This document shows positions 13,722-18,017 of a stretch of 64,000 nt of DNA, piece after piece. The stretch is from the NCBI RefSeq assembly GCF_932294415.1, contig NC_065536.1:50158354-50222353 (forward strand). The letters are read 5' to 3'. A model generated the notes under the pieces. The model ran no database searches. It was not told the DNA's origin and was given only the letters and a program-made list of their open reading frames with translations. How positions within the stretch are numbered: position 1 is the stretch's first letter; each line of letters opens with the position of its first letter. Position numbers and translations under genes: made by a program. Source of the stretch: Quercus robur (Eukaryota; Streptophyta; Magnoliopsida; Fagales; Fagaceae).

Positions 13722-13723
<2 letters not shown>

Positions 13724-13744
13724 AGGTTGTCAAAATCGCGATCC
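13722..13744 (+). repeat. hAT left terminal inverted repeat
   Basis: Pairs with 17995-18017. The first 17 bases are perfect, then one mismatch (C against G), then GATCC matches. Confidence 0.9.
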
Positions 13745-13903
13745 GGATCGTAAAATCGCACGATTTTACGATCCCACCTCACCAAAAAGATTAAAATCGT
13801 AGCAGGATCGCAAAAATGTTAGGATCGTTTGTAGGATCGTGTAGGATCGTATAGGATCGTAGGATCGTATGGGATCCTACCGATCCTACCGATCCTACCG
13901 TTA
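13745..13903. promoter_or_regulatory. Subterminal transposase-binding-like repeats
   Basis: 13745-13774 is a perfect 14-bp palindrome with a 2-base centre (GGATCGTAAAATCG, CA, complement). It is followed by at least five AGGATCGT/AGGATCGC copies (13804-13870) and then three GATCCTACC copies in the opposite sense (13874-13901). Clustered subterminal motifs are the usual binding sites of hAT transposases; binding by this protein is inferred. Confidence 0.65.
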
Positions 13904-13914
13904 GGCTTTTTTGG

Positions 13915-13957
<43 letters not shown>

Positions 13958-14129
13958 GGGATTCATTTGGGTCATTTGGGTAAGTCCAATGAAATAATGC
14001 CCGGCCCACCTAAAGGTCCAATACCCACAAGCCCAATGAATTAAAGTCCTAAATTACCCCTCTCTCAAAATAAAATCCCAAAAAAACCTATACTACTTAA
14101 GTTAAGTTTTCAAACAAAACCTAAATATT

Positions 14130-14756
14130 TAGAAACACTTAAAAGCTTCAGCAGTCAACAGACTCAACACGCACGACGCACCTGCTGGTCCTGCTCCCTC
14201 CCGCGCGCCTCCAGGCCCTCCACAGTCCGACTCCCCTGTTGTCCGACTCCCCTGTTAAAAACCCAGCACTCAACCCTCTCAATGGTGAACTATTGGTGCT
14301 CTCAATCTTTCTTAAGTATTTAGAAGCATTCAAAAACCAGCACCTCAGTCCCGCACGGTCGCACCTGCTCAGTTCTCTGTCAAACGCTCCAGAATGCAGC
14401 AGCTCTGTCCCGCGCGCCATTGCTGCCTTTAAGCTTTCTGGTAATCTTTTTTGGTAGTTAGTACTTATTAAGTTAGTAGTTTATCATTTATTTGCACTTT
14501 GATAGCTTGATTCCAGATTGTTGTGTTGTGTTGTGTTGTGTTTATGTTTTTATTTTTCTATTTTGTTAACTAAATTAAGTAAAATTTGAAAAATTAAGAA
14601 ACAGAGTCTTTAGTATTTGATTCTTTGAGAAATATTAGTAAACACAATTAGTAGTTTAGAATTGCACATAACCTGTTTGATGAATTTTCTGTGTGATTTT
14701 TTTGAGCATGCTCTGTATCTTGGTGTCTTTTTTTGCAGCTCTAGTACAAATATACA
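14130..14756 (+). promoter_or_regulatory. 5' leader and UTR intron of hAT transposase gene
   Basis: 14150-14420 is locally GC- and CpG-rich, unlike its surroundings, and has pyrimidine-rich blocks. A splice donor TTCTG/GTAATC at 14440-14441 and an acceptor TTTTTTTGCAG/CTC at 14738-14739 define a likely 298-bp 5' UTR intron ending 18 bases before the ATG at 14757. Confidence 0.55.
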
Positions 14757-17499
14757 ATGTCTAATTTGGCTAGAAAGAAAATTAAGCGAAAAAATGCACC
14801 AGGAAATAGGTCTGACTTGGGATGGGAACATGGTGTTGAAGTAGGTTCAAGGCAAGTTCAATGTAATTATTGCAAAGAAATTCATAGTGGGGGTATATAT
14901 AGGCTGAAGCATCATTTAGCTGGGACTAGGAAAAATGTTTCAGCTTGTCCTAGTGTGCCAGAAAATGTGAGGGAAAAATTTGCGACTCTTTTGTATGCCC
15001 AATTTGAAGCATCTATAAAAAAGAAAAGGTGGTATACTATAGAAGAAGAGGATGATGGCAATGATGATGAATTAGTTGAAGTACAACAACCACATTCATC
15101 AAAAGGGAGGGGCAAACACATAGGCTCCATGGATAAGTTTGTTACAAAAAATAAGCAAGTAACAATGAATCGTGTGTTTAAAAAAGGAGAACGTGATCTA
15201 GTGATCCAACAAATTGCTAGATTCTTCTACACTAGTGCCATCCCTTTTAATTGTGTCAAAAATCCGGAGTTTCTGCAAATGATTGATATGATTTCAAGAT
15301 TTGGGATTGGCCTCAAGCCTCCTTCCTATCATGAGATTAGGGAGACATGCTTGAAGAAAGAGGTAGATTTTACACAACAAATGCTTGAAGAATATAAGGT
15401 TGAATGGAAAAAAACAGGTTGTTCAATTATGTCTGATGGCTGGTCTGATAAGAAACGGAGATCCATTTGTAATTTTTTGGTGAATAGTCCCAAAGGAACC
15501 ATTTTCCTATACTCTATAGACACATCTAACATATCTAAAACAGCTGAAAAAGTTTGTCAAATGTTAGATGAAGTTGTCGATAGGGTTGGAGAGGAGAATG
15601 TTGTGCAATTGGTGACTGACAATGCTGCTAACTACAAACTAGCTGGAGAGATGTTGATGCAGAAGAGAAAGTGCCTGTTTTGGACTCCATGTGCTGCCCA
15701 TTGCTTGGATTTGATACTTGAGGATTTTGAAAAAAAGATTAAGGACCATAAGTACACAATTGCAAAGGGGAAGAAGATTACAACGTTCATATATTCTAGA
15801 GCTATGGTTTTAAATTGGTTGAGGGATTTCACTAAAGGGAGGGAATTGATTAGACCTGCTGCCACTAGATTTGCAACATCATATTTGACATTGTCATGCC
15901 TTAATGAGTTCAAAGGAGAATTGATGGCAATGTTTTCTTCTGAACAATGGAGGTGTAGTAAATTTGCAAAAACAAAAGAAGGGAAAAGAATTCATGCCAT
16001 AGTTATGGATAACAATGGCTTTTGGCGACTTGTTGTCAAATGCTTGAAGGCCGCAATACCCCTTTTAAAGGTGCTTCGCCTGGTTGATTCTGATACACCT
16101 CCAATGGGATTCATTTTTCAAGAAATGGAAAAAGCAAAAGAAGAAATACAGAAAAATTTCAATAATGTTCAAAAGAGGTAACCATTTTATTTATATCTTC
16201 CTTAAATTTACATTTGTTTTTAATTCATTAGCTTATTAAATATATATTCTTTTTTTTTAATATAATATCCACTGTTTTAAATTGTAGTTACAAAGAGATA
16301 TGGGATATTATTGATGATCGATGGGAAATGCAACTTCATAGGCCTTTGCATGCTGCGGGATACTATTTGAACCCTTCTATTCATTATGATCCTTCTTTTG
16401 ATCCGGGTTCAGATATTAAATTAGGACTATATACGTGTCTTCAACGAATGGTTCCAGAAGTTAGTGATAGGAAAAAGATAGATATGCAACTTGAAAAATT
16501 CAAACAAGCAAAGGGACTCTTTGGTATTGAAGCTGCCATACTAGCCAGAGATACTAAACAGCCAGGTAACAATTTTGTTTTTTGTTTTTTGTTTTACATT
16601 CAAATTCATCTTTATTAATTGTAAATTTTATTCTTAAGACTAAGATATTATAATTCATATATGTATCAGCTGAATGGTGGGACTCATATGGAGATGACTG
16701 TCCTGAATTGAAAAAATTTGCTATAAGAATATTGAGCTTAACATGTAGCTCATCTGGTTGTGAAAGAAATTGGAGTGCGTTTGAAATGGTAAGACCAAAT
16801 GACTTTGGTATATTATGACAAGATGGTTTTCCATTTTCTTTCTTAGTAAAAGTTTGTTTCTTCCCCCCTCCCCTGTGTTTGAGAATTCTCAATTAAAATT
16901 ATTACAACTATAGGTACATTCAAAAAGGAGAAATCGCTTACACCAGAAAAAAATGAATGACTTGGTCTTCGTTATGTACAACTTGAAGATAAAACAAAAA
17001 AGAGCTAAACCATTGAGTACAAAAGAAGAAATTGGTTTGGAGAATTTGTCTTCTGATGATGAGTGGTTAGCAGCAGATTCTGTAGATTCAGAAAATGATA
17101 GTGCAGATTTTGATGAAGACAATGAAGGTATTAATTTATAACTTTAAAGCCTTCCTTTATAGCTAATATTTATATAAGTTATCAATGTATAGTTTGAATG
17201 TGTGACCACTAATCACTAATTTACATTTGTATACTTTACTTATCAAAAAAATTTGTATATTTTGGTTATCAATGTTAGGTGATGATGAGGTTTCAAGAGT
17301 TGCTGCCAAAGGAAAAAGTGTGCTAGTTCATGATGTTAGTGATGAATTTCATGAGAATGATGATGGTTCTAATGATGATGATAGTGATCGGCCCCCACCT
17401 GGATTTGAGAGAGTTAGGGATTTCGATGATTACACCATGGATGTTGATACTAGGAAGGATATAGATGATGAAATGAGATATGACAATGATAGTGACTAG
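14757..17499 (+). CDS. hAT transposase (BED finger, DUF659, dimerisation domain)
   Basis: Exons 14757-16177, 16288-16565, 16670-16788, 16914-17127 and 17279-17499 join at GT-AG borders with phases 2, 1, 0, 1 and total 2253 nt, giving 750 aa with no internal stop. A BED zinc finger lies near residues 34-64 (C36, C39, H52/H53, C64), followed by an acidic linker, a DUF659 region with MSDGWSD (D227) and VTDNAANY (D288), a CAAHCLDL motif, and the C-terminal hAT dimerisation region with CERNWS (E598). D227, D288 and E598 are candidates for the RNase H-like catalytic triad. The tail is strongly acidic. The protein should bind the element ends in the nucleus and cut and reinsert the DNA. It sits centrally between matched inverted repeats. 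Activity is inferred from intactness only. Confidence 0.9.
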
Positions 17500-17924
17500 A
17501 TTAGAAGAACTTTAGAATGGGAATTCTCTTTTGGATTTTATATTTGTAATTAGCTAGTTTACCTTAGATTGAGAATTCTCTTTTTGAATTACATATTGTA
17601 AATTTGTAGTTAGCTAGTTTTTATATGCTAACTAGCCTAACTTATTTTGGATTTGGAACTTAGAATTTGGAAAACATTTTCCATATGTGTAAATAATATT
17701 TTGGTACTTAGTTGCTAATTAAACATGTATTGAACTTTTTAGATATATTATGTCAAAAGTTAAATATATTTTGTTTCGTTAGAATAACATAAGAACAATG
17801 TAGTGCGTGTAAATTACATTTTATGATGCAATTTTTGTTTTTTAATGGATGAATTCATATTTTAAGTGATTATATAACATACAAAGTCATTATCAATAGG
17901 ATTTTTGCTTAAAATCTGAAAATA

Positions 17925-18017
17925 GGTAGGATCTTACGATCCACGATTCGATCCTACGATCCACGATCTTACCTACCTCCAACGATCCTACGTAGGATCC
18001 CGATTTTGACAACCTTG
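17925..18017 (-). repeat. hAT right subterminal repeats and terminal inverted repeat
   Basis: GATCCTACG, GATCTTACG and related motifs occur six or more times in both orientations between 17925 and 17999, mirroring the left subterminal array. The terminal repeat itself is 17995-18017, ending CCTTG against TATATATA. Confidence 0.8.

Follow-up and report, generated by a model that had tools for sequence, protein, structure and literature searches.

The 64,000-nucleotide stretch of Quercus robur DNA analysed here (contig NC_065536.1, hereafter the window) contains, at 13722..18017 on the forward strand, a complete hAT element of 4296 bp, recognised from its terminal inverted repeats (TIRs), the target-site duplications (TSDs) of its sister copies, and five near-identical full-length copies. 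The genome search covered one assembly of 785.7 Mb in 42 contigs, of which C4, C35, C38, C39 and C41 are referred to by label. The coordinates given in a preliminary description of the element were found to be exact when the sequence was re-read, and the 5' TIR (13722..13744, + strand) pairs with the 3' TIR (17995..18017, − strand) at 22/23 bases, as reported there; a repeat search returned 31/32 paired bases, only by taking in flanking TA. Since the single mismatch, at position 18, is C at the left end and G at the right end in 17/17 bounded copies, it is a fixed asymmetry of the family. The 17-bp end sequence has two exact matches in the window, the two ends of the element, and three matches when up to three mismatches are allowed (the extra one at 36371, with three mismatches), against a shuffle mean of 0.37.

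The transposase gene is encoded on the + strand. Exon 1 (14757..16177) holds the ATG, a BED-like region, DUF659, D227, D288 and a CxxH motif at residues 312–315, assigned from the frame, Pfam and a Hermes alignment; exon 2 (16288..16565) is bounded on its left by a junction that the related genes L061 and L062 read through without an intron; exon 3 (16670..16788) carries E598 and the hAT dimerisation region, scoring 35 bits for Dimer_Tnp_hAT alone; exon 4 (16914..17127) follows a junction spanned by the Dimer_Tnp_hAT match (residues 560–629); and exon 5 (17279..17499), encoding an acidic tail and the stop TAG, is placed by its open frame and GT-AG borders, and has the weakest junction. All four predicted junctions (16177/16288, 16565/16670, 16788/16914 and 17127/17279) have GT...AG borders and splice to an open frame of 750 codons plus stop. 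The five exons described earlier stand as coding exons, but a probable leader (5' UTR) intron (14441..14738, + strand, GT...AG), of which GT and AG are kept in 9/10 aligned copies and the AG is lost in L024, probably makes the gene one of six exons.

Pfam searches on the spliced protein gave DUF659 (E 3.2e-55) and Dimer_Tnp_hAT (PF05699, E 1.7e-13, 50.6 bits, cut-off 21.4); the match to the dimerisation profile extends across both the exon 2/3 and the 3/4 junction, and exons 2 and 4 alone score nothing. The candidate catalytic residues D227, D288 and E598 are present as claimed, and align with Hermes D180, D248 and E572, while the CxxH at 312–315 aligns with the Hermes CxxH. A phmmer search against solved sequences gave four matches with E ≤1 (two named Hermes transposase, two named transposase; best 3.8e-8), significant in the C-terminal stretch only; D227 and D288 fall in a weak stretch of the Hermes alignment (i-Evalue 11–17), and are also kept in L061 (C38) and L062 (C41). 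These two genes of the same genome share D227, D288 and CAAHC with the window element, and differ from it as distant families without the first intron, both reading straight across the exon 1/2 junction. The L061 frame runs to where exon 2 ends and there meets a donor-like site (CAG-GTAAAC) and a stop codon; the L062 sequence compared stops soon after the exon 1/2 junction. The two belong to a large set of exon 1 relatives in this genome, at ~34–52% identity.

Both ends of the element carry clustered hexamers, which are candidate transposase-binding sites. The 5' subterminal cluster (13739..13895, + strand) consists of seven GGATCG and four CGATCC, and the 3' cluster (17937..17988, − strand) of four CGATCC and no GGATCG, mirroring the majority orientation at the 5' end; together these clusters account for 15 of the 20 GGATCG/CGATCC hexamers in the window. 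The arrangement holds in 17/17 copies, with 7–12 hexamers in both orientations and GGATCG commoner in the left 200 bp, and 2–5, all CGATCC, in the right 200 bp. Within the region of subterminal repeats and poly-T run (window 13819–13929), L010 has gained 12 bp and L012 has lost 9 bp; since this region differs in length among the young copies (L010–L013), the number of end repeats changes even between near-identical copies. CpG observed/expected was 0.29 in the exons, 0.42 in the rest of the window, and 0.87 and 1.01 in the non-coding ends of the element; CpG depletion was not used as a sign of age, and the CG-bearing end repeats may explain the values at the ends.

For the analysis of copies, 20 loci were fetched, with the window element as L009. 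Five young full-length copies (4273–4302 bp) were found on five contigs (L009 in the window, L010 on C39, L011 on C4, L012 on C35 and L013 on C38), together with four older full-length copies (L015–L018, 4411–4447 bp). The young copies differ pairwise by 6–25 substitutions over 4259–4290 compared sites, and the window copy differs from its four sisters by 0.14–0.49%, in agreement with the earlier view that the element is young. The closest copy found is that on C39 (6/4290 differences, 0.14%). At only three positions (14395, 15091 and 15456) does the window copy carry a substitution absent from its four sisters, and the one at 14395 is also found in the older L018. At a substitution rate of ~7e-9 per site per year, which was not measured for this plant, the separation of the window and C39 copies is roughly 0.1 million years, or several times more at slower tree rates. 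Provided that the two copies acquired these differences themselves, the insertion in the window should not predate their separation.

An 8-bp sequence, TATATATA, stands at both flanks of the window element (putative left TSD copy 13714..13721 and putative right copy 18018..18025, both + strand, 8/8 match), as the preliminary description had noted. The left copy lies inside an uninterrupted TA tract (13693–13720), and the window contains 31 TA tracts of at least 8 bp, both element flanks counted, so the match is weak evidence of duplication on its own, and was rejected as proof. The five young copies have duplications that are all 8/8 and all different (TATATATA, AGCAGGAC, ATCCAGAT, GAGCCAAC and GGTACGGG). 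Across 17 bounded copies at 16 loci, the duplication matches at 8/8 in 14, at 7/8 in two and at 2/8 in one (L020); L014, L019, L022 and L024, with no recognised end on one side, stand outside this count. Among 20 further fetched 3' ends, which had no partner in the end-pattern list, 14 had an 8-bp duplication (≤1 mismatch) beside a TIR-like start, and six did not.

Target preference was counted on the 30 duplications kept, with seven loci without duplication left out. Hermes is described as preferring nTnnnnAn (PMC2803484; PMC10368747). T2 was present in 14/30 duplications, A7 in 17/30, and either in 24/30; the sum of T2 and A7 (31/60) compares with an assumed 0.335 (tail 0.0028), yet T3 (17/30) and A6 (14/30) are equally common, and the sequences suggest a pattern that resembles the Hermes one with no exact match to it. 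A preference of the family for (TA)n targets was unsupported, only 2/30 of the duplications being TATATATA.

Sequences resembling the flanks were found elsewhere without the element. The right flank (from 18027) matches C4:43111197-43111878 at 79%, and in this C4 paralogue (L059, reverse strand 7082–7585 and 7616–8304) the segments matching window 12145–12666 and 18020–18680 lie 30 bp apart, separated by a TA/TG tract, without the hAT element and without a ~1-kb repeat block (12667–13692). A second flank paralogue, L060, also lacks the element. The left flank gave no paralogous empty site in the genome, since it consists of a ~345-bp repeat with at least 351 genome matches. A 934-bp derivative, L027, has inserted into a further copy of the family and is flanked by the duplication ATTTTGGT; the window copy retains this target site without interruption, at 17681.

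Across the genome, an exact 22-base end pattern is present at 172 places (86 per strand; reversed-pattern control 0), often on short non-autonomous relatives. Among the loci fetched were seven short relatives of 934–1367 bp, with 3' ends 93–97% identical, and more distant short relatives (508–1176 bp) had a duplication at 14/20 fetched loci. In viral contigs there were 12 pattern matches, none of them a relative.

Coding integrity was compared by applying the window exon map to the other copies. Four of the five young copies (window, C39, C35 and C38) have 750 open codons, and the C4 copy (L011) has a stop at codon 11; the C39 copy carries D288N, and the window, C35 and C38 copies keep both the frame and the D/D/E triad. 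Inactivating changes common to all copies, which the preliminary description had named as evidence that would speak against an active element, were not found among the ten aligned copies compared, the codon-11 stop being confined to C4 (L024 is gapped at codon 11) and D288N to C39. In Hermes, altering D180, D248 or E572 affects transposition, and the D248A mutant shows a deficiency at the first nick (PMC2533014); by analogy, because of that deficiency, the C39 transposase is probably impaired. The older L016 also has 750 open codons, with the first TIR base changed and a 7/8 duplication, and the older L015, L017, L018 and L024 are frameshifted.

We therefore read the locus, with high confidence, as a complete and recently mobile hAT transposon of autonomous type with a DUF659 transposase. 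The completeness claimed in the preliminary description is borne out by exact ends, full domains, the 750-codon frame, and full-length sisters with duplications. The element is an ordinary member of the well-known hAT class, whose mechanism is established, and a good candidate for one that can still move. Spliced mRNA would yield a 750-aa transposase. Its BED-like finger at the N-terminus, together with the remainder of the protein, would bind the 23-bp ends and the GGATCG repeats next to them. Two or more subunits, assembled through their C-terminal regions, would excise the element by means of a D227/D288/E598 active site and, like Hermes, would leave the flanking DNA with hairpins; insertion at a new site would involve an 8-bp stagger. 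This transposase probably also mobilises the 0.93–1.4-kb derivatives, and perhaps the more distant 0.5–1.2-kb ones.

Maize Ac/Ds resembles this family in having an autonomous element of comparable length (4.6 kb for Ac), short TIRs, 8-bp duplications, hexamer clusters near both ends and many short relatives; its AAACGG repeats, which lie no more than 200 bp from the ends, bind transposase (PMC3260210). Housefly Hermes has a BED-like N-terminus, with a putative counterpart here, and subterminal end repeats bound by BED domains (PMC10368747). By analogy with both, the clustered GGATCG repeats are probably transposase-binding sites. The element differs from Ac in its hexamer (GGATCG here, AAACGG in Ac) and its TIR (about 17–23 bp here, 11 bp in Ac), and, unlike Ac, its transposase carries DUF659. 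It shares with Hermes the aligned catalytic residues and CxxH and the dimerisation region, and differs in TIR and repeat sequences, with significant protein similarity confined to the C-terminal stretch.

Several observations weigh against this reading. The target pattern is not exactly nTnnnnAn, because T3 and A6 are as common as T2 and A7, and the C4 paralogue cannot show the hAT's own junction, because the adjoining repeat block is also absent from it. The zf-BED profile scores 17.7–18.6 bits on the transposase, under the Pfam cut-off of 20.6, and structure prediction of exon 1 without an alignment gave a mean pLDDT of 37.6 and no usable fold. Among the ten aligned copies, the window copy alone has P at codon 112 (a private L112P), the other nine having L. 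No selection was seen among the five young copies, where dN/dS, calculated from few changes, scatters around neutrality from 0.24 to 1.71, with one pair undefined. Between young and older copies it was 0.24–0.55 for L015, L017 and L018, 0.76–0.83 for L024, and 1.5–4.2 for L016. For the window copy, the values were 0.41 with L017 (13/440 synonymous, 22/1807 non-synonymous, Fisher p 0.016), 0.46 with L018 (p 0.042), 1.83 with L016 and 0.78 with L024; the synonymous excess is modest. Exons and introns diverge alike, and the 5' non-coding part diverges faster and is the main source of the exon/non-exon difference. From these sequence comparisons, past coding constraint is suggested, though not a strong one.

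Whether the element is active at present is, judged from the sequence, an evenly balanced question. The family may have amplified recently and now be silent, through methylation or subtle missense changes, a possibility that falls slightly short of an even chance, concerns the present only, and is compatible with a recently mobile element. Of the five young copies, one has already been broken by the stop and another by D288N, the window copy has its private L112P, and the five show no depletion of non-silent changes; on the other side, 3/5 keep the frame and the triad while standing 10–25 substitutions apart over ~4.27 kb. It is improbable, on our assessment, that the family is mobile now and regulated by fast-arising dead twins such as the C39 copy; this full-length and apparently spliceable copy, one catalytic aspartate short, could join mixed oligomers or occupy ends, and its product could damp the intact sister transposases.

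Still less credible are two other readings of the locus. Plant genomes contain domesticated transposase genes, and the transposase frame here is open; however, a transposase retained by the host would be expected at a single fixed locus with its ends lost, and the window element keeps its ends intact and belongs to a family with duplications, with five near-identical copies dispersed in the genome, with numerous short relatives and with no selection signal among the copies, so that domestication has very little probability. An equally slight one attaches to the copies being segmental or assembly duplicates, which would account for their high identity; the copies stand on different contigs with different perfect 8-bp duplications in 5/5 young copies, the 25 bp compared outside each end differ among them, and two flank paralogues lack the element.

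An intact, recently moved transposon with matching short relatives makes a direct activity test possible, and D288N provides a natural comparison at a catalytic residue. The insertions are candidates for polymorphism, the one in the window standing next to an NB-LRR gene that has paralogues elsewhere, and, if the element is active, this plant would gain a new element for tagging. Searches of a limited collection of papers found none printing the end strings of the element, although annotation elsewhere, e.g. in repeat databases, is possible; none combining an autonomous hAT transposase, DUF659 and terminal inverted repeats; and, among the titles listed for the oak genus, none on an active hAT of that genus.

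A second hAT lies in the window at 53971–55677 (− strand), broken and probably Ac-like, with Dimer_Tnp_hAT (E 3.8e-24) in separate, partly overlapping open pieces. Part of hAT-like_RNase-H (PF14372), which we take to be of the Ac-like type, is matched at 21.1 bits, below the 27-bit cut-off. The preliminary description had called every other DNA transposon of the window decayed or non-autonomous; this holds for the second hAT, which is fragmented and was the only one examined.

The NB-LRR resistance gene (8194–11520, + strand; 1109 aa stop to stop) has Rx_N, NB-ARC, winged helix and LRR, with paralogous stretches at C4:43.11 Mb and C4:78.79-78.85 Mb, and the hAT element sits 2.2 kb downstream of its frame, in a (TA)n tract. 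Directly left of the element, at 12728–13692, are the ~345-bp repeats, which are partly palindromic. TA tracts border the block, joined on its left side by an AG tract, and elsewhere in the genome the repeat forms arrays of at least nine units. The absence of the block from the C4 paralogue may reflect either its gain or its loss within the TA tract that holds the hAT element, and it recalls microsatellite-targeted elements (PMC5907723). Elsewhere in the window are a 158-aa frame that by eye resembles an EF-hand, calmodulin-like protein (30836–31309, − strand), a 555-aa frame with Helicase_C, HA2 and OB_NTP_bind, by eye a DEAH helicase (36077–37741, − strand), frames like those of a LINE-type non-LTR retrotransposon (45384–47725, + strand; RVT_1 E 2.6e-13 in the first piece), and a tRNA-Ser (UGA) at 50835–50916 (+ strand).

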